From assembly GCA_020161615.1 (NCBI GenBank), contig JAIUPD010000009.1:1-64000 (forward strand): DNA of 64,000 bases. The letters run 5' to 3'. Within the stretch, counting starts at the first letter, position 1. Each line of letters starts with the position of its first letter. A program made the position numbers and the translations under genes. The DNA comes from Pseudomonadota bacterium (GTDB lineage Bacteria; Pseudomonadota; Alphaproteobacteria; Rhodobacterales; Rhodobacteraceae). This document shows, piece after piece, positions 40,495 to 56,575 of the stretch. The notes beneath the pieces are model-generated. The model ran no database searches, had not been told where the DNA came from, and was given only the letters and a program-made list of their open reading frames with translations.

Positions 40495-40980
40495 GCATCT
40501 GCGCCGCGCTTTCGGGTTCGCCCTCGGGTTCGTTGAGCCAAGACAGCGCCGCGCGTCTCTAGCAGGCCTGTCGCGTGACGCAGGTGCCGGGCGAGACCTG
40601 GACAGAGACCAAGCGCATGATCGTCGGGCGCGCCGAGGCGACGGGACACAACCGCAGGTCAGCGCGGCGAGTGCCGGCGGGCGGCCCGGATCGCGGAATT
40701 GCCGGGCGTGGGGCCGATCATCGCCGATCGGGCCCGCCAATCAGGCGCGTTGCGATGAGAAATTGCTGAGGTCAGGGACTTCGACTTCCTCGACTGGCCA
40801 AAATGAAGGCTGAAAGGGGCTTGAAACGCTTGACTGGCCAGGACCCTTTCGCCGTAATTTGGGACCCGAGTGGCAATCGCCCAAGTCGGCAACCCCCTTT
40901 TCCCCTGAATTCGGATTTTAGGAAAAAGCAGACCGGGAACTTTCTGAAACGACACTTCCGATTGGAGAGCGGAGTCAATC
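40495..40980. other. Gap between island end and cas3, with possible transposase debris and cas3 promoter
   Basis: 486 bp without an intact gene. A short frame around 40690-40745 reads RIAELPGVGPIIADRARQSG, which resembles the helix-hairpin-helix part of IS110-type transposases, so this may be an old insertion remnant. Positions 40830-40860 contain TTGACT and TAATTT separated by 19 bp, a possible weak cas3 promoter. GGAGAGCGGAG just before 40981 is a ribosome-binding site. Confidence 0.4.
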
Positions 40981-43230
40981 ATGGGAAATGGTCCATTTGC
41001 GCATTCTGGCCTGCTCGCCGACCAATCCGATTGGCAGACATTGGAGGACCATCATCGAGAGGCCGGAAATCTGGCGTCCCGACGGGGGCAGTCAATCGGT
41101 CTTGACCGCAGCGCCGGCCTGGCCGCGTCGGTGCATGATTTTGGCAAGCACGATCCTCTCTTTCAGCGGCGGCTTTCCGGCGAGGAAATCCGCGTCGACC
41201 ATTCCACCGCAGGGGCCGCTTTGCTGATGAAGCGTGCGCACGGCGCCGAGAAAATGGCGACGGAAGTGCTGGCCTATGCGATCCTCGGCCACCACGCGGG
41301 ACTGCCCGACAAGGACGGATCGGATGCCGCGATGACCCGGCGGCTGGAGCAGTTCCGCGACGGGATCCCGGGCTCCGTCACCTCGGCGGCGGCGGTCGAT
41401 CTGGCGCCGCTGCTGCCCGAAATCAGCGCGAAGATCCGCCCCGGGGGGCTGGCGGGCTTTGACCTGTCGGTCCTGGGGCGGATGGTATTCTCCTGCCTGG
41501 TCGATGCCGACTTTCGCGACACCGAGGCCTTCTACGACCGGCTGGAGAACCGCAACCGCGATCGGGATTGGCCCTCGCTCACGGCGATTCTGCCCGACCT
41601 GCGCGCGAGGTTCGACGCGCATATGGCCGGCTTCACGGCCGAGACGGACCTGAACCGCCTGCGCGCCGAGGTACTGGCCCATATCCGCGAGGGCGCCGCG
41701 ATGCCGCCTGGCCTCTTCACGCTGACCGTGCCGACCGGGGGCGGCAAGACCCTGGCCAGCCTGGGCTTCGCGCTGGACCATGCGGCGCGCTACGGTCACC
41801 GGCGGATCCTCTACGCCATCCCCTATACCTCGATCATCGACCAGACGGCGGCCACGTTCCGCGAACTGCTCGGCGATATCGTGCTGGAGCATCATTCCGC
41901 GATCGACATCGAGGCGCGGGGCCCGGGCGGCATCGAGGGGCGCGACAAGGCCCGCCTCGCCATGGAGGATTGGGCCGCGCCCGTGGTGGTGACCACCAAT
42001 GTGCAGCTCTTCGAGAGCCTGTTTGCCGCGCGCCCCTCGCGCTGCCGCAAGCTGCATAACATCGCCGGTTCCGTCATCGTGCTGGACGAAGCGCAGAGCC
42101 TGCCGCGCCCCCTTCTGATGCCGACGCTGCGGATGATCGACACGCTGGCCACGCAGTATGGCTGCTCGGTGGTGCTGTGTACCGCCACGCAGCCGGCCTT
42201 CGACAGTCGCCAATTGAAACAAGGCCTTGCGCTGGAGGGGCGCGAGTTGGCGCCCGATCCGGTCGGGCTGGCCAGCCGCCTGCGCCGGGCGCGGATCGTG
42301 CGGGGCGGCGTCATGGAGGACGCCGCGCTGATCGACGCGCTGCGGGCGACGCCGCAGGGGATGGTGATCGTCAACAGCCGCAAGCATGCGCTGGACCTGT
42401 TCCGGGCGGCGCAGGCCGAGGGGCTGGAAGGGCTGGTGCATCTGACCACCCGCCAATATCCGGCCCACCGCCGCCGCATCCTAGCGGAGGTGCGGGCGCG
42501 ATTGGAGGCCAAGGCCCCCTGTCGCCTGATCGCGACCAGCCTGATCGAGGCCGGGGTCGATGTCGATTTCCCCAAGGGCTGGCGGGCCGAGGCGGGGCTG
42601 GACAGCATTGTCCAAAGCGCGGGCCGGGTGAACCGCGAGGGGCGGCGCCCGCGGGAGGACAGCACACTCACCGTCTTCGAGGCGCCGGGCCAGCCGGTGC
42701 CCGCCAGCCTGAAGCCGCTGATCGACGCCATGCGCAGTACGGCGGGCCGGCATGACGACCTGCTGGCGCCGGCGGCGATCCGGGACTGGTTCGACCAGGT
42801 CTATTGGACCCGGGGGGTGGAGAGGATGGGCCAACCGATGGTGGATGCCTTTGTCTTCTCGGGTCGGGACTTGGGCGGGGGCCATACCAACTTTCCCTAT
42901 CGTTCGACCGCTGAGGCCTACCGGATGATCGACACCCTCATGGTCCCGGTGATCATCGGCCGCGACGACGACGCCCGGGCGGCCATCGCCCGGCTGAACG
43001 TGCCCGATGTCCATTCAGGCAATCTCGCGCGGGCCTTGCAGGCCTTTACCGTGCAGATCCCGGACAGGGCGCGGGCCCTGCTGCTCCAGAACGGCCATGC
43101 GCGGTTTGAAGCGCCCCATTTGCGCGGGGACCAGTTCTGCGTGTTGCAGGACCTGACGCTTTATCACGAGGACAGCGGATTGCGGTGGGAGGATGCCGAG
43201 TATTTAAGCGCGGATCAGAGCTTGATTTGA
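40981..43230 (+). CDS. cas3: Cas3 nuclease-helicase (type I-C)
   Basis: 749 residues. The HD nuclease domain (about 1-230) has ASVHDFGKHDPLFQ, DHSTAGAALLM and ILGHHAGLPDK. The superfamily 2 helicase follows with Walker A VPTGGGKTLASLGFALDHA near 250, DEAQ-box VIVLDEAQSLPRP near 365, VVLCTATQPAF, and motif VI-like VQSAGRVNREGRR. Cas3 is recruited by Cascade to unwind and degrade target DNA. It is first in the type I-C order but is separated from cas5c by an unusual 384-bp gap that carries the crRNA-like element. Confidence 0.95.
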   Translation: MGNGPFAHSGLLADQSDWQTLEDHHREAGNLASRRGQSIGLDRSAGLAASVHDFGKHDPLFQRRLSGEEIRVDHSTAGAALLMKRAHGAEKMATEVLAYAILGHHAGLPDKDGSDAAMTRRLEQFRDGIPGSVTSAAAVDLAPLLPEISAKIRPGGLAGFDLSVLGRMVFSCLVDADFRDTEAFYDRLENRNRDRDWPSLTAILPDLRARFDAHMAGFTAETDLNRLRAEVLAHIREGAAMPPGLFTLTVPTGGGKTLASLGFALDHAARYGHRRILYAIPYTSIIDQTAATFRELLGDIVLEHHSAIDIEARGPGGIEGRDKARLAMEDWAAPVVVTTNVQLFESLFAARPSRCRKLHNIAGSVIVLDEAQSLPRPLLMPTLRMIDTLATQYGCSVVLCTATQPAFDSRQLKQGLALEGRELAPDPVGLASRLRRARIVRGGVMEDAALIDALRATPQGMVIVNSRKHALDLFRAAQAEGLEGLVHLTTRQYPAHRRRILAEVRARLEAKAPCRLIATSLIEAGVDVDFPKGWRAEAGLDSIVQSAGRVNREGRRPREDSTLTVFEAPGQPVPASLKPLIDAMRSTAGRHDDLLAPAAIRDWFDQVYWTRGVERMGQPMVDAFVFSGRDLGGGHTNFPYRSTAEAYRMIDTLMVPVIIGRDDDARAAIARLNVPDVHSGNLARALQAFTVQIPDRARALLLQNGHARFEAPHLRGDQFCVLQDLTLYHEDSGLRWEDAEYLSADQSLI

Positions 43231-43238
43231 ATAGGATG

Positions 43239-43263
43239 GCGCCCGGCGTGGGACGCCGGGCGC
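43239..43263. terminator. Perfect hairpin after cas3, also the 3' end of the crRNA-like RNA
   Basis: GCGCCCGGCGT (43239-43249) pairs exactly with ACGCCGGGCGC (43253-43263) across a 3-nt loop, 8 bp after the cas3 stop. No T-run follows on either strand. For the minus-strand RNA it sits where a second repeat stem-loop would be, 32 nt after the handle. Confidence 0.6.
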
Positions 43264-43323
43264 GCGCAATGAGAACGCAACGCTACACAGAGAATGTTTC
43301 GATCCGCGCGGCAAAGCCACGAC
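43239..43323 (-). ncRNA. crRNA-like RNA (CreR/CreA-type) with pseudo-repeat and pseudo-spacer
   Basis: Read on the minus strand. Positions 43321-43307 form a 6-bp stem CGUGGC-UUU-GCCGCG (one G-U pair). Positions 43306-43296 then read CGGATCGAAAC, identical to the last 11 nt of the array repeat, which is the 5' handle Cas5 leaves in type I-C. The loop sequence has diverged, but the cleavage point at the stem base is preserved. Positions 43295-43264 are a 32-nt pseudo-spacer starting ATTCTCTGTGTAGCGTT, followed by the 43263-43239 hairpin as pseudo-repeat 2. A weak promoter (TTGAGT 43358-43353, 17 bp, TAGTGC 43335-43330) would start transcription at about 43323. The first 17 nt match the cas5c promoter site with one mismatch at position 6, where Cascade leaves bases unpaired. 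It is probably a Cascade-guided autorepressor (CreR) or a toxin-repressing CreA. Confidence 0.78.
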
Positions 43324-43329
43324 CCGGTT

Positions 43330-43358
43330 GCACTATGGGGGTTCGATATCCAACTCAA
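43330..43358 (-). promoter_or_regulatory. Possible promoter of the crRNA-like RNA
   Basis: On the minus strand TTGAGT (43353-43358) and TAGTGC (43330-43335) are 17 bp apart. The -10 is poor, but the predicted start (about 43323) falls exactly at the base of pseudo-repeat 1. Confidence 0.4.
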
Positions 43359-43466
43359 GGGACATCGAGAACGACCCGACCTTCAACCGCAGCGAGTACC
43401 GCCTTCTCTTCATCAAGGACTCCTTTCAAGTGATGCTGGCAAGCATACGCGCAACCCCTCGACTAG

Positions 43467-43498
43467 TCCACAAGATTTAACGCTACACATAGAATGAA
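43467..43498 (+). promoter_or_regulatory. cas5c-operon promoter overlapped by a PAM-flanked target of the crRNA-like RNA
   Basis: TCCACA (43467-43472), 17 bp, then TAGAAT (43490-43495; 5 of 6 to consensus) form the best promoter upstream of cas5c. On the minus strand 43495-43479 reads ATTCTATGTGTAGCGTT, preceded by TTC (43498-43496), the established type I-C PAM. It therefore presents a protospacer covering the -10 box to the crRNA-like RNA encoded 170 bp away. Binding of Cascade here would block RNA polymerase. Confidence 0.72.
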
Positions 43499-43614
43499 GA
43501 TAGAGTTGCCAACCACGCACCAGAGCGGGAGCGGTCGTACCACCTCAAACCTGGCGCAGCTTTTTTCTTGCTAGACGTAGACAAGCCGATAATCTTGCAA
43601 CCGGGAGAGAGTTC

Positions 43615-44313
43615 ATGGCCTATGGTGTTCGCTTACTAGTCTGGGGTCAGCACGCCCTTTTTACACGCCCGGAATTGAAGGTCGAACGCGTCAGCTATGA
43701 CGTGATGACCCCCTCGGCCGCGCGCGGTATTCTGGAAGCCATTCACTGGAAACCCTCGATCCGCTGGGTCATCGACCGAATTCATGTGTTGGAGCCGATC
43801 CGCTTTCAGTCGATCCGCCGTAACGAGGTCGGGCACAAGGCGCCGGCGGGCACGATAAAAAGCGCCATGAAGCGGGGCGATCTCGGCGGGGTTCAGCTTT
43901 TGGTGGATGAGGACCGCCAGCAACGCGCCTCGACCGTGCTGGTGGCCCCGCGCTACGTGATCGAGGCGCATTTCATCCTGACCCCGCGCGCCGATGCGAG
44001 CGACAGCGAGGGCAAGCATCTGGACATCTTCAACCGCCGCGCCGCGCGCGGGCAATGCTTTCACCAGCCCTGCCTCGGCACCCGCGAATTCGCCGCGCAT
44101 TTCGAGCTGATCGCCCCGGACGCGCCCCTGCCCGCCCGCAACCCCGAGGCAGAAACCGCGGATCTGGGCTTCGGCGCCCCGCGCGACCTGGGCTACATGC
44201 TGTGGGATATCGACCATGCCGCGCCCGGCCGCCCCTCGCTGCTGTTCCGCGCCACGCTGCGCGACGGTGTGATGGAGGTGCCGCCGCCCGGCAGCCCCGA
44301 GGTGAAGCGATGA
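43615..44313 (+). CDS. cas5c: Cas5c (Cas5d) crRNA-processing endoribonuclease
   Basis: 232 residues from ATG 43615 with GGGAGAG upstream. It has the family start YGVRLLVWGQHALFTRPELK followed by RVSYDVMTPSAARGILEAIH, and near the end REFAAHFELI and DLGYMLWDID. In type I-C this subunit replaces Cas6, cutting each repeat at the base of its stem to leave an 11-nt 5' handle, and stays in Cascade. It is the first gene of the effector unit after the regulatory gap. The stop overlaps cas8c by ATGA. Confidence 0.95.
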   Translation: MAYGVRLLVWGQHALFTRPELKVERVSYDVMTPSAARGILEAIHWKPSIRWVIDRIHVLEPIRFQSIRRNEVGHKAPAGTIKSAMKRGDLGGVQLLVDEDRQQRASTVLVAPRYVIEAHFILTPRADASDSEGKHLDIFNRRAARGQCFHQPCLGTREFAAHFELIAPDAPLPARNPEAETADLGFGAPRDLGYMLWDIDHAAPGRPSLLFRATLRDGVMEVPPPGSPEVKR

Positions 44314-46166
44314 GCCTGCTCGCCGCGCTGGCCCGCGCCTATGATCGCCTGCCCGACGCGCCGCCCTATGGCTATTCGACCGAGAAAATCGGCTTCTGCG
44401 TGGTGCTGAACCCCGACGGGTCGGTGGCCGAAACCGCCGATCTGCGCGGCGATGACAAGAAACGCAGCCCGCGCCTGCTTCTGGTGCCGCAAGCGGTGAA
44501 GCGCACGGTCGGCATCGCGCCGAACTTCCTGTGGGACAAATCGGCCTATGTGCTGGGGGTGACGGCGGGCGAGGGCAAGCGCACCGCCGAGGAACACGCG
44601 AAGTTCCGTGAGCAACATCTGGAATGGCTGGATCAGACCGGTGACGCAGGGCTGCTGGCGCTGCACCGCTTCCTGGAGGGCTGGACCGCCGAGGCCTTCG
44701 CCCCGCCCCTCTGGCCCGAGGATCTGCGCGACCAGAACATCGTCTTCCGCCTGTCGGGTGAATACGAGTATCTGCACGACCGCCCCGCCGCCCGCACCCT
44801 GTGGCGAGCGATCGGCGCCGCCAATGCCTCCGATCCGCAGATTTGCCTTGTCAGCGGTACGCCGGGCCCGGTCGCGCGCCTGCATCCCTCGATCAAGGGT
44901 GTCTGGGGCGCGCAATCCTCGGGCGCGAGCCTGATCTCGTTCAACCTCGACGCCTTCACCTCTTACGGACACGAACAGGGCGACAACGCCCCGATCTCGG
45001 AAGCCGCCGCCTTCGCCTATACCACCGCGCTCAACCGATTTCTGGAGAAGGACAGCGGCCACCGTATCCAGATCGGCGATACCTCGACCGTGTTCTGGGC
45101 GGATTGCGAAGATGCGACCGTGGCGCAGGAAGCGGACGCCTGGGCGGCCCTGATGCTGGGCGGCAACGCGAAGGCCGGTCCAGAAGAAAAGCTCCTCGAG
45201 GCCAGGATACGCAGCAACCTTCTTCAGATGCGCGACGGCAAACCGTTGCAGCAGATCGCCCCGCATCTCAGCACGGGCGTGAGGATGCATCTGCTGGGTC
45301 TGGCGCCAAACGCCGCACGGCTGTCCGTCCGATATTACTGGACCGACAGTTTCGGCACCCTGGCGCAGAATTACGCCGCCTATCTGCGCGATGTTGCCAT
45401 GGAACCCGCACCCGAGCGCCCGGTCTTCTCGATCAGGGCCGCGGCGTTGCGTAGCGCCCCGGCAGAGTTCCGCAACAATGTGCTTAAATATGATGGCGAC
45501 CGCGTTTCCCCTCTGCTGGCCGGGGAATTGACCCGGGCCATCCTGACCGGCGCCCGGTTCCCGCGCGCTTTGCTTGGATTGCTGCTGATGCGCGTGCGCA
45601 GCGACCACGTGCTGGATCGCATCCGCATTTCCCTAATCAAGGGGCTGATCGTCCGCGACATGCGGCTTGAGCAGCGCTTGCCCTCGCGCCCTGACGGCAC
45701 ACCGATGGAGACCTACCTCATGCGCCCCGATCCCGAAGACCCGAATGTCGCCCGCCGTCTCGGTCGCCTTTTCGCCTTGATTGAACGGGCGCAGCTCGCG
45801 GCACTGGGGGACGGCATCAACGCGACGGTGAAGGACAAATTCCTCGGCCCCGCCGCAGCGACACCCGGCCGCGTCTTTCCCAGCTTGCTGATGAATGCCG
45901 AGAACCACCATCTGAAGCGGCTGCGCAACGGCCATTCGGATGCCGACTGGATCAAGGATGCCGCCCATGCCCGCGCTGTCGGCGCCGGACTGAACCGCGA
46001 CATCGGCGAGCTCTGGGCCAGTCTAGAGAGGGGCGCGCCGGCGCAGCACAGCTTGGAAGAGCAGGGACTCTTTCTGGTGGGCTATTACCAGGAACGCTTT
46101 GTCAAACGGGACGAGTCAGCGGCGGACGCCGCCGCCAGCCCGGAAGAACACGAGAGTGAGGAGTGA
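44310..46166 (+). CDS. cas8c: Cas8c (Csd1) large Cascade subunit
   Basis: 618 residues from ATG 44310, coupled to cas5c. It opens SLLAALARAYDRLPDAPPYG and contains GYSTEKIGFCVVLNPDG, FLWDKSAYVLGV, SGASLISFNLDAFTSYGHEQ and the C-terminal SLLMNAENHHLKRL, all typical of Csd1. Cas8c recognises the PAM, here expected to be TTC, and helps recruit Cas3. The length is normal for the family, with no frameshift. Confidence 0.95.
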   Translation: MSLLAALARAYDRLPDAPPYGYSTEKIGFCVVLNPDGSVAETADLRGDDKKRSPRLLLVPQAVKRTVGIAPNFLWDKSAYVLGVTAGEGKRTAEEHAKFREQHLEWLDQTGDAGLLALHRFLEGWTAEAFAPPLWPEDLRDQNIVFRLSGEYEYLHDRPAARTLWRAIGAANASDPQICLVSGTPGPVARLHPSIKGVWGAQSSGASLISFNLDAFTSYGHEQGDNAPISEAAAFAYTTALNRFLEKDSGHRIQIGDTSTVFWADCEDATVAQEADAWAALMLGGNAKAGPEEKLLEARIRSNLLQMRDGKPLQQIAPHLSTGVRMHLLGLAPNAARLSVRYYWTDSFGTLAQNYAAYLRDVAMEPAPERPVFSIRAAALRSAPAEFRNNVLKYDGDRVSPLLAGELTRAILTGARFPRALLGLLLMRVRSDHVLDRIRISLIKGLIVRDMRLEQRLPSRPDGTPMETYLMRPDPEDPNVARRLGRLFALIERAQLAALGDGINATVKDKFLGPAAATPGRVFPSLLMNAENHHLKRLRNGHSDADWIKDAAHARAVGAGLNRDIGELWASLERGAPAQHSLEEQGLFLVGYYQERFVKRDESAADAAASPEEHESEE

Positions 46167-46170
46167 GTTG

Positions 46171-47049
46171 ATGAGCCCGATCCAAAACCGCCATGATTTC
46201 GTCTTTCTCTTCGACATCAGGAATGGCAACCCGAACGGCGATCCCGATAACGGCAACATGCCGCGGATCGACAACGACACGCAGCACGGGCTGGTCACCG
46301 ACGTCGCCCTCAAGCGCAAGATCCGCAACTACGTCGATCTGAAGCATGGCGGCCGCCCGCCCCACGGAATCTACATGCGCGAGAAAGCGGTACTGAATAC
46401 GATCCACGCCGAAGCCTACACGGCCCTGGGCATCAAGTCGGATGCCAAGAAGCTGCCGAAAGAAGAAGAGGGGCGCCGGATTACCCGCTGGATGTGCGAC
46501 AACTTCTACGACATCCGGACCTTCGGCGCCGTCATGACGACCGAGGTCAACGCAGGTCAGGTCCGCGGCCCGGTGCAACTGAGCTTTTCGGAATCGGTTG
46601 ACCCCATCCTGCCGCAGGAGATCACCATCACCCGGTCGTCGGTCACTAACGAGAAGGATGCCTCCAAAGAGCGGACCATGGGTCGGAAATACATCGTCCC
46701 CTACGGACTTTATCGTTGCCACGGCTTCGTCTCGGCCAGCCTTGCGGGCGACGCAACCAAGGGCACCGGCTTTTCGCAAGAGGATCTCGATCTGCTGTTT
46801 GAAGCCCTCTGCAACATGTTCGAGCACGACCGTTCCGCGGCGCGAATGGAGATGAACGCCCAGAAACTCGTGGTTTTCCGCCATGAGAACGCCCTTGGGA
46901 ACGCGCCTGCCCAATCGCTCTTCCGCCGGGTGAAAACCACGCTGAATCCCGACGTGAAAGTCCCGCGCAGCATCGACGATTACACCGTTTCGATCGACCA
47001 GAACGACCTGCCGGCCGGGGTTAGCATGATTTTCCCCTGCGGCCTTTGA
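46171..47049 (+). CDS. cas7c: Cas7c (Csd2) Cascade backbone
   Basis: 292 residues from ATG 46171, 4 nt after cas8c. Family hallmarks are RHDFVFLFDIRNGNPNGDPD and NMPRIDNDTQHGLVTDVALK at the N-terminus, FYDIRTFGAVMTTEVNAGQV, and LYRCHGFVSASLAGD. Several copies polymerise along the crRNA spacer and flip out every sixth base, which is relevant to the mismatch pattern of the crRNA-like RNA in the cas3-cas5c gap. Confidence 0.95.
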   Translation: MSPIQNRHDFVFLFDIRNGNPNGDPDNGNMPRIDNDTQHGLVTDVALKRKIRNYVDLKHGGRPPHGIYMREKAVLNTIHAEAYTALGIKSDAKKLPKEEEGRRITRWMCDNFYDIRTFGAVMTTEVNAGQVRGPVQLSFSESVDPILPQEITITRSSVTNEKDASKERTMGRKYIVPYGLYRCHGFVSASLAGDATKGTGFSQEDLDLLFEALCNMFEHDRSAARMEMNAQKLVVFRHENALGNAPAQSLFRRVKTTLNPDVKVPRSIDDYTVSIDQNDLPAGVSMIFPCGL

Positions 47050-47052
47050 CCC

Positions 47053-47679
47053 ATGCCGGCCGAGATGGAACCCATCCCCCTCTCGGCCCTGCAGCACGCT
47101 GTCTATTGCCTCCGGCAGGCGGCGCTGATCCATCTGGAACGGCTCTGGGCCGAGAATCGGTTCACCGCCGAGGGCGATGTCCTGCACGCCGTGGCCGACA
47201 AGGGCGGCAACCGCAAGGCCCGAGGCGTCCGGCGGGTGCTGTCCCTGCCGCTGTCCAGCGAGCGGCTGAACTTGATCGGCACCGCGGATCTGGTCGAGTT
47301 TCACGGCGACACCCCGTTTCCGGTGGAATACAAGCGCGGCAAGCCCAAGCTGCACCGTGCCGATGAGGTCCAGCTCTGCGCGCAGGCCCTGTGTCTTGAG
47401 GAAATGACGGGCCAGCCGGTACCCCAAGGCGCGTTATTCTATGCCCAGACCAAACGGCGCGTGGTTGTCCCCTTCGACCCCGATCTGCGCGCCTTGACCG
47501 AGGCCACCGCGACCGATCTGGCGGCCGTGTTCTCGAGCAGCCAGACGCCGCCCCCCACGCCACACAAATCCCGCTGCCGCGCCTGTTCTCTGCAAGAGCT
47601 TTGCCGACCCGAGACCTTCGCCCGTCCGGTTCGGCAATGGCGCGACCGGATGCTCTCCAAGGCTTTGGAGGAGAGATGA
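47053..47679 (+). CDS. cas4: Cas4 exonuclease for spacer acquisition
   Basis: 208 residues from ATG 47053. The RecB-like nuclease core has PFPVEYKRGKPK (the E-x-K motif) and DEVQLCAQALCLEEMTGQPV. The iron-sulfur cysteines are an early Cys (HAVYCLRQAALIHLERLW) and the late cluster CRACSLQELC. Cas4 trims prespacers and selects the PAM together with Cas1-Cas2. It is coupled to cas1 by ATGA. Confidence 0.93.
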   Translation: MPAEMEPIPLSALQHAVYCLRQAALIHLERLWAENRFTAEGDVLHAVADKGGNRKARGVRRVLSLPLSSERLNLIGTADLVEFHGDTPFPVEYKRGKPKLHRADEVQLCAQALCLEEMTGQPVPQGALFYAQTKRRVVVPFDPDLRALTEATATDLAAVFSSSQTPPPTPHKSRCRACSLQELCRPETFARPVRQWRDRMLSKALEER

Positions 47680-48710
47680 AAAAACTGCTGAACACCGTCT
47701 ATGTCACCACGGAAGGGGCCGCGCTGAAGAAGGACGGCGAGGCCCTGGTGGCCGAGGTCGACGGCATCGAACGGGCGCGCGTTCCCCTGCATATGCTGGC
47801 CTCGGTCGTGGCCTTCGGCCCGATCCTGATCTCGCCTGCCCTGATCGGCATCTGCGCCGAACGCGGCATCACCCTGGCCTTGATGGACCGTGCCGGCCGG
47901 TTTCAGGCGCGAATCGAGGGGCCGGTTTCCGGCAATGTTCTGCTGCGGCGCGCCCAGTACCGGGTGGCCGACGGCGGCGAGGACATCGTGCGCTCGATTG
48001 TCCTGGGCAAGATCGCCAACCAGCGCGCGGTGATCCGCCGGGCGCTGCGCGACTACGGGTCCGAGATGGCGCCTCCGGCCCGCGACGCGCTTGACACGGC
48101 CAGCGACCGGATGGCGATGATCCTGCGCCGGGTGCAGGCGGCCGACAGCGGCACCGATGCTCTTCGCGGGTCCGAGGGAGAGGCGGCCAATCTCTATTTC
48201 TCCGTCTTCGACGCCCTGATCCGCAGCCCCGACCCCGAGTTGCGCTGGACCCAGCGGTCGCGTCGTCCGCCCCTGGATCCGATGAATGCGCTGCTGTCCT
48301 TCCTCTATACCCTGCTGACCCACGACTGCCGCGCCGCCTGCGAGGCGGTGGGCCTCGACCCCGCCGTCGGCTTCCTGCATCGCGACCGGCCGGGCCGCCC
48401 GAGCCTGGCCCTGGACCTGATGGAGGAATTGCGCGCGCCGCTGGCCGACCGGCTGGCGCTGTCGCTGGTCAATCGCCGGCAGCTGCGGGCCGGTGATTTC
48501 CGCCGGATGGAGGGCGGCGCGGTGCTGTTGTCCGACGAGGCCCGCAAACTGGTCCTGACCGCCTGGCAGGAGCGCAAGAAGGAAGAGCGTCTGCACCCTT
48601 TCCTGGCCGAGAAGGCGCCTTTCGGTCTGGTCCCCCATCTTCAAGCGCAGCTTCTGGCCCGCCATCTGCGCGGCGACATCGACGCCTATCCCCCCTGGTT
48701 CTGGAGCTGA
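47676..48710 (+). CDS. cas1: Cas1 integrase
   Basis: 344 residues from ATG 47676 with GGAGGAGAG upstream. It opens [20 protein letters not shown] and carries catalytic-region stretches [15 protein letters not shown] (Glu), [20 protein letters not shown] (His) and [20 protein letters not shown] (Glu/Asp), then [20 protein letters not shown]. It inserts new spacers at the leader end as a complex with Cas2. It is intact, consistent with the very long array downstream. Confidence 0.95.
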
Positions 48711-48711
48711 C

Positions 48712-49002
48712 ATGCTGGTTCTGGTCACCTATGACGTCAACACGCTGGAAGAGGGCGGAAAGAAGCGCCTGCGCCGGGTCGCCCGTGCCTGCGAGGATTG
48801 GGGCCAGCGGGTGCAGTTCTCCGTCTTCGAGATCGAGCTTGACCCGGCCCAATGGACCAAGCTGAAGGCGCGGCTGGAGGGCATAATCCTGCCCCAGCAT
48901 GACAGTCTGCGGTACTATTATCTGGGGTCGAACTGGACCCGCAAGGTCGAGCATGTGGGGGCCAAACCGGCGACGGACCTGAACGGCCCTCTCATCATCT
49001 GA
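48712..49002 (+). CDS. cas2: Cas2
   Basis: 96 residues, the usual length. It opens [20 protein letters not shown] with the ferredoxin-fold strand and aspartate, then [20 protein letters not shown] and [19 protein letters not shown]. It is the structural partner of Cas1. It is the last cas gene; the leader and array follow immediately on the same strand. Confidence 0.95.
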
Positions 49003-49200: not shown

Positions 49201-52200
49201 GTCGCCCCCTCCCCGGGGGCGCGGATCGAAACCACAAGCATAAGTCCAGGAACGGGATGCCGGTCGGTCGCCCCCTCCCCGGGGGCGCGGATCGAAACTC
49301 CATGAGGCGAAGCTCACCCCAACGGCGGGCCTGTCGCCCCCTCCCCGGGGGCGCGGATCGAAACTGCATATTCGCGAGATTTAGGTTCTGGCGCCCTTGT
49401 CGCCCCCTCCCCGGGGGCGCGGATCGAAACCCGTCCAACTGGCGTCCGGCGGCTTTCTTGCCGAGGTCGCCCCCTCCCCGGGGGCGCGGATCGAAACACG
49501 ATGTGCTGGGTGCCGCCCCGGCGATGGAGGAGGTCGCCCCCTCCCCGGGGGCGCGGATCGAAACTGCCGCGAAGCTGTCAGCCAGCCGGAACAGCACCGT
49601 CGCCCCCTCCCCGGGGGCGCGGATCGAAACCCATGCGAGCGCCGAGGCACCGCCGCGCAGGGGCGGTCGCCCCCTCCCCGGGGGCGCGGATCGAAACGGC
49701 CCCATGGGCGGACGGTTGGTGTCCCAGACAAACGTCGCCCCCTCCCCGGGGGCGCGGATCGAAACGGCTAAAAGTCTGTTCCTGGCCACCAAGCCCAAGC
49801 CGTCGCCCCCTCCCCGGGGGCGCGGATCGAAACTTCGGTCCGGCGAATAGGGGGGCAAGGCGCGGAGGTCGCCCCCTCCCCGGGGGCGCGGATCGAAACT
49901 CGGCGGCCCAAACCATGGCTGACCAGACCGCACGTCGCCCCCTCCCCGGGGGCGCGGATCGAAACTCTGTCATGCCGCGATCCCCCGCTTGCGGTCGAGT
50001 CGCCCCCTCCCCGGGGGCGCGGATCGAAACCTCGAATTCATCCAGACGCACCGGCGCGGCGAGTGTCGCCCCCTCCCCGGGGGCGCGGATCGAAACCGCG
50101 CCCTATGGCCAGCGACCGCGTGACGCTGCGTCGCCCCCTCCCCGGGGGCGCGGATCGAAACGGCGTCAAGGGCGAAATGGCTTCCGGGGACGGGATGTCG
50201 CCCCCTCCCCGGGGGCGCGGATCGAAACCTAGCATTGCGATTGGAAATATAGGAAAAGCGCCGTCGCCCCCTCCCCGGGGGCGCGGATCGAAACTCCGCG
50301 CCGATGGTCAAGGCCATCCTGCGCGAGATGTCGCCCCCTCCCCGGGGGCGCGGATCGAAACGGCCGCAGGTAGATCAAGTGCTTGTAGCTTCCGCCGTCG
50401 CCCCCTCCCCGGGGGCGCGGATCGAAACAAGCATGTCGGAAATATCTGCGCCATCTGCGATGCCGTCGCCCCCTCCCCGGGGGCGCGGATCGAAACCTGC
50501 GGCTGAACGAAGTGACCCGTCTGCACCAAGAGTCGCCCCCTCCCCGGGGGCGCGGATCGAAACAGAGGCCCGAGGAGATAGAGCATCAGGACCGGACCGT
50601 CGCCCCCTCCCCGGGGGCGCGGATCGAAACCTTTCGACAACCGCGCCGGAAGCGTCCAGTAGCGAGTCGCCCCCTCCCCGGGGGCGCGGATCGAAACACC
50701 GCCTGCCTGAATGCGCCGATCCCGGCCCGTGCCGTCGCCCCCTCCCCGGGGGCGCGGATCGAAACGGCGGCAAAGGTGCCGCTGAGGGTCAGGGCATCGC
50801 GGTCGCCCCCTCCCCGGGGGCGCGGATCGAAACGGGACGGGCCGCATCGCTATGCTGCTGGCCGGTCGTCGCCCCCTCCCCGGGGGCGCGGATCGAAACT
50901 GGCCTGCGGTCTTTGCCTTGGTCATGTGTCCCTGTCGCCCCCTCCCCGGGGGCGCGGATCGAAACTTCGCCGTGTCGCGGATGCCGACATATTGCGAAAG
51001 GTCGCCCCCTCCCCGGGGGCGCGGATCGAAACGCAAGGGCAGGGTCAGGCCGGTCCGCGGATCCGTCGTCGCCCCCTCCCCGGGGGCGCGGATCGAAACT
51101 TCGATACGGGCCTTCGCGGCAATCGAGGCCATGGTCGCCCCCTCCCCGGGGGCGCGGATCGAAACCTCGATATAGGCCATCAGCACATCCGCGATCTTCG
51201 TCGCCCCCTCCCCGGGGGCGCGGATCGAAACGCTGTCGATGAACTGGCGCACGCTCTGGACGATCCGTCGCCCCCTCCCCGGGGGCGCGGATCGAAACGG
51301 CCATGCCTGCGGGGTCCTTGCCGAAGGCCGTTGTCGCCCCCTCCCCGGGGGCGCGGATCGAAACCAGCGGAAAGTCTGGGCGATCTCACAGCCGAAAAGG
51401 CCGTCGCCCCCTCCCCGGGGGCGCGGATCGAAACCTTGCTGACCGTCAGCCTGCTGCGCCCGACCGAGTCGCCCCCTCCCCGGGGGCGCGGATCGAAACC
51501 GCGCCATCGCCATGCCGACCGACCACCCGGCCTAGTCGCCCCCTCCCCGGGGGCGCGGATCGAAACGCCCGCGCCGCCGATGCAGTCGTCAACCCCATGA
51601 TGTCGCCCCCTCCCCGGGGGCGCGGATCGAAACCATGTCGCCGGGTCGTCCGGGTCCTGCGCCTCATCGTCGCCCCCTCCCCGGGGGCGCGGATCGAAAC
51701 ATGGCTGTTCCGCGGGCAGGATGCCCGGCCTCGGCCGTCGCCCCCTCCCCGGGGGCGCGGATCGAAACATGGACCCGGACGGGATCACGGGGCACGGCGT
51801 GGTGTCGCCCCCTCCCCGGGGGCGCGGATCGAAACCAAGCAGGTGCAGGCCGGTGCTGACGGCCGGATGGGTCGCCCCCTCCCCGGGGGCGCGGATCGAA
51901 ACGGAACCGGCGCGCGCGAGGCCGGGGCCATGCTGGCGTCGCCCCCTCCCCGGGGGCGCGGATCGAAACGGGCCGTAGGCGTAGAGGGCGGCGCCCGCGA
52001 TCAGGTCGCCCCCTCCCCGGGGGCGCGGATCGAAACCCGCCGAAGGGCAGCTCGCCGCTTTCCGCCGTCGCGTCGCCCCCTCCCCGGGGGCGCGGATCGA
52101 AACTCCGGCGACAGAGAAAGGTTGGCAGGGAGGGGAACGTCGCCCCCTCCCCGGGGGCGCGGATCGAAACGCGCCCTACGTCAACACCATCAAGGTCGCC

Positions 52201-55200
52201 GACCGCGTCGCCCCCTCCCCGGGGGCGCGGATCGAAACGCGTGACCAAAGCTGCCGGGGCTGGCGGAAACGCCGTCGCCCCCTCCCCGGGGGCGCGGATC
52301 GAAACAACATCACCGGCCAGACGATCGAGGCGGTGACGAAGTCGCCCCCTCCCCGGGGGCGCGGATCGAAACGCATGACATGGGAAACTCAGTACATCGG
52401 GCTTCCGTGTCGCCCCCTCCCCGGGGGCGCGGATCGAAACTTCAGCTCGTTCGACTCCAGCGACGAGATGTCGAGTCGCCCCCTCCCCGGGGGCGCGGAT
52501 CGAAACTGGAAGCCGCAGCCGCCGAAGATCGACAAGGCAGCGGTCGCCCCCTCCCCGGGGGCGCGGATCGAAACTCTGGCCGCCATGTGCGCGGTCACAC
52601 CGACACGCAAGTCGCCCCCTCCCCGGGGGCGCGGATCGAAACGCCACAATCGCCGCAATCGCACTGGCGCTGTCCGGGTCGCCCCCTCCCCGGGGGCGCG
52701 GATCGAAACATCCCGTCGTGCTGGTCTTTGTGGATTGGCCCGACGGTCGCCCCCTCCCCGGGGGCGCGGATCGAAACGCGGCCGCGCGCATGGCGCAGAC
52801 GTTGGGGGTCCGGTCGCCCCCTCCCCGGGGGCGCGGATCGAAACAATAGGGACATGGCCGATGTCCCGGTCATGTCCCGGGTCGCCCCCTCCCCGGGGGC
52901 GCGGATCGAAACACGGAATTGAAGGCGCGGGGCTACGACGCCAGCAAGTCGCCCCCTCCCCGGGGGCGCGGATCGAAACAGCAATCAGCCCGTCGAGGTC
53001 GGGGATCACATAGCGTCGCCCCCTCCCCGGGGGCGCGGATCGAAACGAGGAAGCCAAGATCGTGCGGATATCGACCCCGCAGGTCGCCCCCTCCCCGGGG
53101 GCGCGGATCGAAACGATGATATCGTGCAGGTCCGCGATCTCCTCGAACTGTCGCCCCCTCCCCGGGGGCGCGGATCGAAACTGCCTTCCCCGCTCTGCCT
53201 TGAGGATGCCCACGATGTCGCCCCCTCCCCGGGGGCGCGGATCGAAACGCCAGCTCGTCGCGGACGTAGCGGTCGGCGCGGTGGTCGCCCCCTCCCCGGG
53301 GGCGCGGATCGAAACTCGCTGTGGTCGTAGAAGGTGCCCTTTTCCAGATCGTCGCCCCCTCCCCGGGGGCGCGGATCGAAACCTGACGGACACGCCAAGA
53401 AGACCGGCGATGTACCGTCGCCCCCTCCCCGGGGGCGCGGATCGAAACTGCGGCAGTTTTGGCGGCCTCGGCTTGGTCGCGCTGGTCGCCCCCTCCCCGG
53501 GGGCGCGGATCGAAACATCGCGTCCACCACGCCGGGGACGAGCGGAATGTCGAGTCGCCCCCTCCCCGGGGGCGCGGATCGAAACTCGGCAAGCATCGTT
53601 GCGGTTCGCGCGACATGCAGGTCGCCCCCTCCCCGGGGGCGCGGATCGAAACCGCAGGGCGCTGCTTCTGGTGCCCCGGAAGAACGGCGTCGCCCCCTCC
53701 CCGGGGGCGCGGATCGAAACTGCCCGGCCTGACCCGCCGCCGCGAGGCGGAGTTGTCGCCCCCTCCCCGGGGGCGCGGATCGAAACCGCGCCCCGCAGGA
53801 GAAGGGGCCGGACGCGGTCGTCGCCCCCTCCCCGGGGGCGCGGATCGAAACCTGCTGCCGTTGCCCGCGCGAATCCGTGGTCTCCGTCGCCCCCTCCCCG
53901 GGGGCGCGGATCGAAACATCGAGCCCCCACCGCTCACCGACGCACACGAGCGCCGTCGCCCCCTCCCCGGGGGCGCGGATCGAAACGTGGATTTTCCGGC
54001 CGTCCTTGTCGTGCTGGTCGGTCGCCCCCTCCCCGGGGGCGCGGATCGAAACGGCGCGGGGGGATGGTCACCGGCAATACCTCAGGTCGTCGCCCCCTCC
54101 CCGGGGGCGCGGATCGAAACCTCGGCCTGCGACAGAATGGCCGACTCGCCCTCGGTCGCCCCCTCCCCGGGGGCGCGGATCGAAACTATCCAGACCCGGA
54201 GCTGACCCGCGAGGAGCGAGGTCGCCCCCTCCCCGGGGGCGCGGATCGAAACCGGCCCTGGCAGAAGCCCTCGAATGCGACGTTGAGTCGCCCCCTCCCC
54301 GGGGGCGCGGATCGAAACAGGATCCGGGGGCGGGTCGATGACCGGATCAGCGGTCGCCCCCTCCCCGGGGGCGCGGATCGAAACATCGGTCGGGGCGCCG
54401 CCGCCATGACCGACCCCGGTCGCCCCCTCCCCGGGGGCGCGGATCGAAACCGCCCCATGCCCACCCCGGGTACAAAGGACAGGGAGTCGCCCCCTCCCCG
54501 GGGGCGCGGATCGAAACATGGACGGCCCGAACCGTGGCCTCGCGCGGCGCCGTCGCCCCCTCCCCGGGGGCGCGGATCGAAACTCGCGGAGAAGGCGCCG
54601 CAGGATGAAGGCGGTCGTGTCGCCCCCTCCCCGGGGGCGCGGATCGAAACCACCCCACGCTTCCGCCGCCTTTGCAAGCCGCTTGGTCGCCCCCTCCCCG
54701 GGGGCGCGGATCGAAACCGGTGCGAGCGCTCTCGATCCTCGCCTCTTGCAGCAGTCGCCCCCTCCCCGGGGGCGCGGATCGAAACATGTTGAGCGCGAGA
54801 CGGCGAACCTCGACATCGCGGTCGCCCCCTCCCCGGGGGCGCGGATCGAAACGGTGGCCATGGTGACCTGAGAAAGGAGCATAAATGTCGCCCCCTCCCC
54901 GGGGGCGCGGATCGAAACGTCTGGGGCGCAAAGCGCCGCTGTGCGGCCGGTTGTCGCCCCCTCCCCGGGGGCGCGGATCGAAACTGAGATGGCCGTCCAG
55001 ATCACCGTCACTCTTGATGTCGCCCCCTCCCCGGGGGCGCGGATCGAAACGCGGACATGCGAATCGGCTCCTAATGGCCGTCCGTCGCCCCCTCCCCGGG
55101 GGCGCGGATCGAAACGCTGACGGCCGGCGCGCATGTGATCGAGATCGAGGGTCGCCCCCTCCCCGGGGGCGCGGATCGAAACGGGATCACGCGGTGAAGC

Positions 55201-56575
55201 TGCCGCGCGTCCATCGGTCGCCCCCTCCCCGGGGGCGCGGATCGAAACACCCCCGCGCACGAGGCCCGCGCCCGCCAGGTGGGTCGCCCCCTCCCCGGGG
55301 GCGCGGATCGAAACCAGAGCGGCAACGCGATGAAGCGGGCTGCCGATGGTCGCCCCCTCCCCGGGGGCGCGGATCGAAACGGCATCGTGTGGGCGGGGAC
55401 GAATACCGGGGCGGTCGCCCCCTCCCCGGGGGCGCGGATCGAAACCTGGTCGGGCAGGAGGGCGTGTTTCGCGACCTCGCGTCGCCCCCTCCCCGGGGGC
55501 GCGGATCGAAACCGCTCTCGGCGCAGTGCGGGGCATCAGACGCGGGTGTCGCCCCCTCCCCGGGGGCGCGGATCGAAACAAACACGAAGTACCCACCAAA
55601 GCCCAGGTGAGCGGTCGCCCCCTCCCCGGGGGCGCGGATCGAAACAAGGATTCGACCGGTCAGTATCTGTGGCAGCCGGTCGCCCCCTCCCCGGGGGCGC
55701 GGATCGAAACGGTCGAAGCCGACCGGCCGGACGCGGTGCGGGTGGTCGCCCCCTCCCCGGGGGCGCGGATCGAAACCCGCCGACCTGGGCGGCCGGATGG
55801 CGACCAAGCGTCGCCCCCTCCCCGGGGGCGCGGATCGAAACGGGCACTTGATCTCGACCATGCCGTCCGCTCCAACGTCGCCCCCTCCCCGGGGGCGCGG
55901 ATCGAAACACGCTCTCGATTGTGATTTCCGCCTCGCCTTCCGGTCGCCACCGCCCCGGGGGCGCGGATCGAAACGCGTGTTTCATGGCAGCGCCTCCTTA
56001 GCGCTTGGCGTCGCCCCCTCCCCGGGGGCGCGGATCGAAACCCATGACCCTGCGCAAGATCATGGTGGATGGGCTGTCGCCCCCTCCCCGGGGGCGCGGA
56101 TCGAAACTTCTGAATGGCTATCGACCGACGCGAGCTTAAGCGGTCGCCCCCTCCCCGGGGGCGCGGATCGAAACGGCTGGTGGTCTGAACTACCGGCTTT
56201 CGAGTGGACGTCGCCCCCTCCCCGGGGGCGCGGATCGAAACTGGAACGGCCGGGAGACCGAGACGCTGCCGGTGGTCGCCCCCTCCCCGGGGGCGCGGAT
56301 CGAAACGACATCTTCGACGCAACGGGCGTGCGGGTCCTCTCGTCGCCCCCTCCCCGGGGGCGCGGATCGAAACGCCTGTCAGAAGCACGTGGTCGGCCAG
56401 CGCCTGCGGGTCGCCCCCTCCCCGGGGGCGCGGATCGAAACTGGCCGAAGAGGTTGAGCGTCAAACCGCCCGCGCCGTCGCCCCCTCCCCGGGGGCGCGG
56501 ATCGAAACCCGTCCAGCCTGCTGCGGTGCCAGTTGCGGATCAGGTCGCCCCCTCCCCGGGGGCGCGGAGCTAGAC
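49201..56575 (+). CRISPR. Type I-C CRISPR array, about 111 repeats and 110 spacers
   Basis: The 32-nt repeat starts GTCGCCCCCTCC at 49201 and ends GCGGATCGAAAC at 49232. It contains a 7-bp stem CGCCCCC/GGGGGCG with loop TCCCC, and its last 11 nt lie just after the stem. I located repeat starts one by one, from 49201, 49267, 49333 onward to 56410, 56477 and 56544, giving 111 repeats with spacers of 33-36 nt. Nearly all repeats are identical. Exceptions are the copy at 55943 (CACCG in place of CCCCT in the 5' arm) and the last copy at 56544, whose final 7 nt are replaced. Degeneracy at the far end shows the leader is on the cas2 side. Confidence 0.97.

Follow-up and report, generated by a model that had tools for sequence, protein, structure and literature searches.

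The window (the entire stretch of 64,000 nucleotides that was analysed) contains a complete type I-C locus, in which cas3-cas5c-cas8c-cas7-cas4-cas1-cas2 and a CRISPR array all lie on the plus strand (Table 1). The array spacers were found to be 33-38 nt in length, with the exception of one gap of 101; a preliminary description of this DNA had given 33-36 nt, of which the lower limit stands and the upper does not. A gap of 384 nt separates cas3 from cas5c, and its minus strand (43323-43239) carries a crRNA-like element composed, in order, of a stem, a handle, a 32-nt guide and an 11-bp hairpin.

Table 1 Coordinates of the type I-C locus and of the features in the cas3-cas5c gap.
Feature	Position	Strand	Remarks
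cas3	40981..43230	+	
11-bp hairpin	43239..43263	-	loop CCC; 3' pseudo-repeat and/or RNA end
guide (pseudo-spacer), 32 nt	43264..43295	-	first 17 fit the target
11-nt 5' handle CGGATCGAAAC	43296..43306	-	identical to the array repeat
6-bp stem-loop	43307..43321	-	CGUGGC/GCCGCG; in place of the repeat hairpin (5' pseudo-repeat)
26-codon ORF MKRRRYSLRLKVGSFSMSLELDIEPP	43333..43413	-	ATG...TAG; between target and guide; proposed toxin (CreT/CreP-like)
Shine-Dalgarno-like AAGGAG	43420..43425	-	6 nt before the ATG
putative micro-protein promoter	43442..43470	-	TGGACT (43470-43465), 17 nt, TATGCT (43447-43442)
seed-side target, 17 nt	43479..43495	-	fits guide positions 1-17, mismatch at position 6
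PAM TTC of the self-target	43496..43498	-	
cas5c	43615..44313	+	
cas8c	44310..46166	+	start codon inferred from the reading frame
cas7c	46171..47049	+	start codon inferred from the reading frame
cas4, cas1c, cas2	47053..49002	+	cas4 47053-47679, cas1c 47676-48710 (start inferred), cas2 48712-49002
CRISPR array	49201..56508	+	109 exact 32-nt repeats GTCGCCCCCTCCCCGGGGGCGCGGATCGAAAC

The crRNA-like element and its target

The preliminary description had read this element as a crRNA mimic: a match to the last 11 nt of the array repeat that extends to 14 nt, a 6-bp stem-loop of different sequence ahead of the handle, a 32-nt pseudo-spacer behind it and a hairpin with an 11-bp stem. Each of these parts was recovered in its place, and comparison with the array repeat established identity over the handle and over the longer GCGCGGATCGAAAC (43309-43296, minus strand), the last 14 nt of the repeat, beyond which identity stops. 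If copies with a preceding G are set aside, the gap holds the single occurrence of this 14-mer in the genome of 4.87 Mb. Counting all copies gives 110 forward and 2 reverse, and the second reverse copy must be preceded by GG, as in the array repeat. The element folds with an MFE z-score of -2.55 (3/200 shuffles fold at least as well), and the 6-bp stem taken alone is weak, being reached by 301/5000 shuffles. No terminator-like U-run was found at the 43239-43263 hairpin, and a search of Rfam at E up to 1 returned only radC, whose 16.6 bits fall short of the gathering score (40).

The promoter that had been proposed to place the RNA start at the base of the stem did not reappear: a scan of 43190-43640 gave a single promoter-like site (shuffle mean 0.3), TCCACA-17-TAGAAT at 43467-43495 on the plus strand, which faces cas5c and is overlapped by the target of the guide. 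This site could be two-way. An 82-aa plus-strand ORF (43185-43433) was rejected as a gene, as it has no NCBIfam match and selection sits in the minus-strand frame of 26 aa. Among plasmids, 12 records match the query, only from query base 516 on (adjoining or in cas5c), and the gap itself was not found.

The guide begins with ATTCTCTGTGTAGCGTTG. The sequence TTC-ATTCTATGTGTAGCGTTA (43498-43478) is found on the same strand, 200 nt further upstream. With positions 6 and 12 left out, guide and target match at 15/15 of positions 1-17; position 6 is the sole difference within this stretch and the next falls at 18, again a multiple of six. A full 32-nt target footprint would reach 43464. A search of the genome with TTC plus guide positions 1-14 (6 and 12 free) gave one perfect place, the target; the other 4 places at up to two mismatches all carry two, and one of them is the guide itself. 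Across 40901-44400, the next best of the 92 TTC sites after the target scores 8/15, and none of the 109 array spacers scores above 11. Cascade leaves every sixth guide base unpaired, as type I structures show. TTC is given as the type I-C PAM in Xanthomonas in the excerpted text of PMC8406640, and the excerpts of a type I-C paper (PMC7684278) hold no passage on a 'sixth' or 'flipped' base. The preliminary description had overlooked both this target (43495-43479) with its TTC PAM and the 26-aa ORF (43413-43333).

The putative promoter of the micro-protein is weak in the window, with 8/12 consensus bases, and is missing from the stricter scan of 43190-43640. The first hexamer of this TGGACT-17-TATGCT falls inside the 32-nt target footprint. 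From the stop codon of the 26-codon ORF to the handle there are 26 nt.

Guide and target pairs in other type I-C loci

Two samples were compared: 394 genomes of the same family, 19 of which carry cas5c (own genome included), and 80 named cas5c loci, the best 80 among the matches listed. In an order sample, cas5c was present in 15/390 genomes. For each cas3-cas5c gap, every 18-mer following GAAAC was set against every 18-mer following TTC on both strands; the score counts 15 positions (6, 12 and 18 left out), and 11 or more defines a module. Shuffles preserved dinucleotides in the guide/target and promoter tests and were mononucleotide in the swap/fold, stem and 3' hairpin tests. L039 (contig edge) was left out of the family test, and the cas3 end of L024 was set 420 nt before cas5c; L072 and L097, which have no cas3 end, were left out of the named-loci test.

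It was found that 8/18 gaps of the family sample score at least 11: the window 15; L025, L034 and L038 14; L026 13; L022 and L030 12; and L035 11. For seven of these gaps (window included) 0/1000 shuffles were as good, and for L035 3/1000. In the named sample (the best 80 among the matches listed) the cut-off was reached by 18/78 loci, 16 with 0/500 shuffles and two with 1/500; L106 scored 9 (161/500 shuffles) and was not counted. The negative control, 315 cas coding segments (134 without any pair to score), never exceeded 10. L026/L047 and L028/L061 are the same records, and the first pair was counted once among the modules; because this one module record is common to both samples, the strict modules number 25, not 26.

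Relaxing the handle to GAAAT added L065 and L119 (24 loci examined), and relaxing the PAM to TTT added L104 and L081 (4 loci examined), in both cases without shuffles. This gives 29 modules under relaxed rules that were applied to part of the loci only, and the position counts refer to the 25 strict modules. Handle-less pairs of 12, met in L081, L090 and L092 during the relaxed-handle examination, were taken as background. Among the named loci (the best 80 among the matches listed), 58/78 had no pair after the relaxed handle and 56/78 after the relaxed PAM; many module-less loci have short gaps. With TTT, L104 (Inquilinus limosus) scores 15/15 and L081 (Pararhodospirillum oryzae) 14/15, perhaps reflecting a different PAM in these lineages. 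In the gap of L107, undetermined bases (N) and a second copy of the handle-guide stretch probably reflect faulty assembly; the locus was counted as a module, but the stem and promoter tests were run without it on account of these N runs and the apparent duplication.

In place of the guide/peptide module, 8/17 gaps examined (L027, L044, L046, L050, L053, L064, L066 and L092) hold a plus-strand protein of ~100 aa with a motif that resembles a GIY-YIG nuclease. Pfam gave no match for two of these proteins, and no guide/target pair with handle was detected in any of the eight gaps.

Over the 25 modules, guide and target match at 121/125 of positions 1-5, 5/25 of position 6, 114/125 of positions 7-11, 8/25 of position 12, 95/125 of positions 13-17, 9/25 of position 18 and 69/290 of positions 19-30. 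The near-chance level at 6, 12, 18 and beyond is a finding because those positions were unscored; where positions were scored, the cut-off itself accounts for part of the high level, and no precise end point of pairing (after 16, 17 or so) should be read from these counts. At the level of sequence, guide and target co-vary: they differ between loci, and each guide fits its own target. Own pairs score 11-15 in the swap control, and swapped pairs reach 11 in 4/600, those that do being from loci with similar guides (window/L048, L025/L045 and L060/L051). Conservation of the pseudo-spacer in close relatives, put forward earlier as a test of the element, would have misled, as the spacer is not conserved and its fit to the local target is.

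Architecture of the modules

The target lies 5' of the guide on the guide strand in 25/25 modules, by 85-327 nt. A stem abutting the handle, summed over 24 modules, was matched in length by 0/2000 shuffled sets, four of the 24 lacking such a stem by the definition of the test. By folding energy, the 5' stem reached significance in only a minority of modules, the window not among them (97/200). For the 3' hairpin, the stems of 27 modules add up to 196, whereas none of 300 shuffles exceeded 55; a perfect stem of at least 5 bp begins 23-43 nt after the handle in 20/27 modules and at 51 in one, and none was found in the other six. The 3' hairpin of L110 resembles a regular type I-C repeat, and this resemblance suggests an origin from a minimal array of two repeats, as the available parts of PMC8501985 describe for creA.

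Promoter-like sequence at the target was assessed in 26 modules, and was equalled by 0/200 shuffles on the ORF strand and by 13/200 on the other strand. In the seven minus-strand modules, the promoter score of the ORF strand is the same as that of the opposite strand (sums 92.0 each).

Two individual loci deserve description. L022 shares 92% identity in Cas5c with the window, and the two have different peptide families and opposite orientations; modules thus seem to be exchanged faster than cas genes. L094 (Kushneria aurantia) has a gap of 842 nt, in which two ORFs, presumably resembling HicA and HicB, lie beside the crRNA-like module.

Micro-protein families

Relatives of the window peptide occupy the same place in 7 other type I-C loci (eight counting the window): L047 (Rhodobacteraceae MAG), L043 (Paracoccus), L048 (Rhodobacterales MAG), L065 (Paracoccus endophyticus), L059 (Ancylobacter), L062 (Rhizobium terrae) and, as a looser relative, L104 (Inquilinus), which has the other orientation and no stop before the guide. 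The seven aligned peptides (L104 left out) share R3, Y6, R9, G13, E20, D22 and P25 as invariant residues. Among six members, dN is 0.18-0.50 and dS is at least 1.35 (6/15 pairs) or saturated (9/15), and dN/dS is only roughly known because of the saturation in nine pairs. Judged by these codon substitutions, the family is under purifying selection among the six members tested. The window and L047 differ by 13 synonymous and 7 nonsynonymous codons, with 2 second-position versus 14 third-position changes.

A second peptide family (L022, L025 and L045) follows the pattern M..KPPKP...LE..LEC.A.ALRI.LK..P, with dN of 0.30-0.40 and dS of 2.2-2.7. The peptides of L030, L034, L038, L069, L089, L094, L118 and L119 appear, by eye, amphipathic or with a hydrophobic stretch. 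An ORF of 18-80 codons is present in 27/29 modules and a Shine-Dalgarno-like motif in 23, a count made without shuffle control. Where several candidate ORFs were present, some were chosen by eye (in L035, L099 and L110 the peptide was picked only by eye), and a convincing peptide was not seen in L051, L060, L093, L107, L111 and L081.

With an HMM of the window family, 3 genomes among the 394 of the family sample were matched at E up to 0.01. Two of them, the own genome and G114 (which carries the L026/L047 locus), have the match beside cas5c with E near 1e-17; the third, G096, has a partial match at E 3.5e-4. The E of 8.9e-17 for the window ORF is that of a sequence which is itself one of the HMM rows. 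Among 385 genomes of the class, the own genome was the 1 match at E up to 0.001. The window peptide has no match in Pfam at E up to 1, and hence no KilA-N domain of the CreP type was found; for the other six peptides, three gave Pfam matches, only at E above 0.04. PADLOC returned no match for the window peptide, and tblastn against plasmids none for two peptides.

A possible second module was considered on contig C8 of the own genome (L002), on the basis of a 55-nt match (76%), and was rejected, as the match lies within a longer frame without the peptide. The handle-like stretch there (13/14, L002 about 1174-1187) finds a best target of at most 9/15 at 77 TTC sites and is probably due to chance.

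Discussion

We favour the reading that the cas3-cas5c gap holds a CRISPR-regulated, toxin-antitoxin-like (CreTA/CrePA-like) addiction module of the type I-C Cascade with the micro-protein as its likely toxin, to which we assign a probability of about three in four. It is built on the guide, PAM, target and ORF, their order, the co-variation of guide and target and the purifying selection on the peptide family, all of which can be read from the DNA; transcription, processing by Cas5c, repression and toxicity are what we infer. The crRNA-like RNA (43323-43239, minus strand) would be trimmed by Cas5c to the 11-nt handle and 32-nt guide, Cas5 being the protein that cuts pre-crRNA in type I-C according to the excerpts of PMC10651486, and would be loaded into type I-C Cascade. 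The complex would then bind the promoter region (43498-43464) via the PAM TTC and a complementary stretch of 17 nt in which every Cas7 segment leaves its sixth base free, and would block transcription of the 26-codon gene. Pairing stops after about three 6-nt segments (~15 bases), which should let Cascade bind without exposing the host's own chromosome to Cas3. If Cascade were lost, or disabled by an anti-CRISPR, the micro-protein would be made and growth would stop. The guide RNA may have its own promoter or arise by read-through from the regulated promoter; were the repressed promoter its sole source, repression would curb the guide on which it depends, closing a loop.

The preliminary description had proposed a CreA- or CreR-like RNA of a type I-C system that guides Cascade to a promoter, and the co-variation of guide and target in 25 modules lends support to this proposal. 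The choice between CreA and CreR had been left open. That a micro-protein gene lies between target and guide and runs in their direction speaks for CreA, the antitoxin, with cas autoregulation possible as a second effect, and the presence of several unrelated micro-proteins under the same control in the same place argues for toxins over a conserved regulator. It also appears probable to us, if less firmly so, that type I-C loci of Alpha-, Gamma- and Betaproteobacteria and beyond carry interchangeable addiction modules in this gap, which silence protein-acting micro-proteins and release them upon loss or inhibition of Cascade. These micro-proteins would be peptides of 26-31 aa, or of 53-62 aa with a hydrophobic stretch, and modules would be exchanged while the cas genes stay nearly the same, as for the window and L022.

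A CreR-like autoregulator would lead Cascade to the promoter of cas5c-cas8c-cas7-cas4-cas1-cas2 and damp cas expression, the ORF being incidental or a leader peptide. Such a role is suggested by the target of the window, ~120 nt upstream of the cas5c start and overlapping the plus-strand TCCACA-17-TAGAAT, by targets 36, 24 and 4 nt before cas5c in L059, L062 and L065, and by the common direction of ORF, guide and cas5c in plus-strand modules. However, most modules place a co-directional peptide ORF between target and guide, in one family under purifying selection, and in minus-strand modules of the window type this ORF points away from cas5c. The promoter signal, moreover, lies on the ORF strand (0/200 in 26 modules) and is unclear on the other (13/200), although this does not apply to the seven minus-strand modules. 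We consider autoregulation unlikely as the main role of the RNA; the overlap of the target with the cas5c-facing site and the closeness in L065, L062 and L059 make an added effect on the cas genes possible.

A CreT in the strict sense would be a short transcript that is toxic as RNA, rare early codons trapping tRNAs or ribosomes and the peptide sequence being irrelevant. The window ORF combines a strong ribosome-binding site with AGA/AGG among its first codons (AAG AGA AGG CGG), early codons that we presume to be rare in the host, and published mini-ORFs are conserved although it is their RNA that is toxic (PMC8501985 and PMC10097628, in the portions available). Against this, the ORFs run to 26-31 codons rather than 6-11, amino acids are kept while codons change (for example between the window and L047), and homologues use CGC, CGT, CGA and CGG at the same arginines. 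Such protein-level purifying selection on the ORF family speaks against an RNA-only toxin, which we regard as improbable. The autoregulator and strict CreT both overlap with the addiction module proposed here, and for that reason the odds we attach to the readings do not sum to one; autoregulation and toxin control could hold together.

The element is very unlikely to be a Racr of the phage or plasmid type, an RNA anti-CRISPR that occupies Cas proteins. Solitary type I-C repeat units do exist in mobile elements (PMC10651486, as excerpted), but here the element sits inside the cas operon, in the cas3-cas5c gap of the window and of relatives rather than on a phage or mobile element, carries a guide whose chromosomal target is flanked by a PAM, and recurs at the same place in other genomes. 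Next to no weight attaches to chance and a decayed repeat, its self-match being left by duplication of AACGCTACACAnAGAATG. Two copies 200 nt apart in one gap could yield one pair by local duplication, but unrelated guides and targets follow the same rule in 25 blind modules, and the relatives have both the PAM and the periodic mismatches (at 6 and 12).

If the addiction-module reading is true, a common CRISPR subtype would in many cases be coupled to a switch for suicide or dormancy, with a bearing on the persistence of type I-C loci and on the punishment of phages that carry anti-CRISPRs. Native type I-C editing tools would be affected, as deletion of cas genes could kill such strains or retard their growth. 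The natural guides would further provide an evolutionary measure of Cascade binding without cleavage (a PAM and three segments that together pair ~15 bases, each sixth position being free), and the module can be detected by this pairing rule without knowing any sequence.

Shmakov et al. (2023) reportedly describe standalone repeats with guides for cas or cargo promoters, mostly of type I, which may include type I-C cases. CreTA has been described in haloarchaea (type I-B) and Acinetobacter (type I-F), with RNA toxins (PMC8501985, PMC9458426 and PMC10097628, each as excerpted). By its sequence, the window likewise has a crRNA-like RNA gene with a handle and repeat-like structure beside cas genes, and a guide partially complementary to a PAM-flanked site, the placement of a promoter there being backed by the set of 26 modules and weak in the window. 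The modules resemble CreTA, as far as the excerpts describe it, in combining degenerate repeat(s) with partial complementarity and a PAM at the promoter of a small gene inside a cas locus, and resemble Acinetobacter CreTA (cas3-csy1 gap) in lying beside cas3 with a mini-ORF behind a Shine-Dalgarno motif. In contrast to CreTA, the system of the window is type I-C, in which Cas5c instead of Cas6 would process the RNA, and an ORF of 26-31 codons with protein-level selection takes the place of an RNA toxin of 6-11 codons. The order target-ORF-guide on one strand also differs from Acinetobacter CreTA, where the excerpts have the mini-ORF divergent from creA.

The module would share with CrePA a protein-coding gene as candidate toxin under a CreA-guided effector, whereas CreP, in the parts of PMC12737573 available, typically has a KilA-N domain and acts on FtsZ, and the window peptide is 26 aa long with no Pfam match. 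It would share with CreR, described in the same excerpts, a crRNA-like RNA in a cas locus that acts via Cascade on a promoter; CreR is generally uncoupled from toxin genes (PMC12737573), whereas here a conserved peptide ORF, the putative toxin, lies behind the target. An earlier survey lists 34 candidate structured RNAs in type I-C systems, one of them ~300 bases upstream of cas3, and the accessible text makes no mention of creA or of a toxin (PMC9067536). In the excerpts seen of the literature on CreTA, CrePA, CreR and repeat-like RNAs with type I-C, no description of this family was identified. The element may coincide with candidates of PMC9067536 or with standalone repeats of Shmakov et al. 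Mechanistically, the proposed module would belong with CreTA and CrePA, as an apparently new type I-C form of these systems with a translated micro-protein as the likely toxin.
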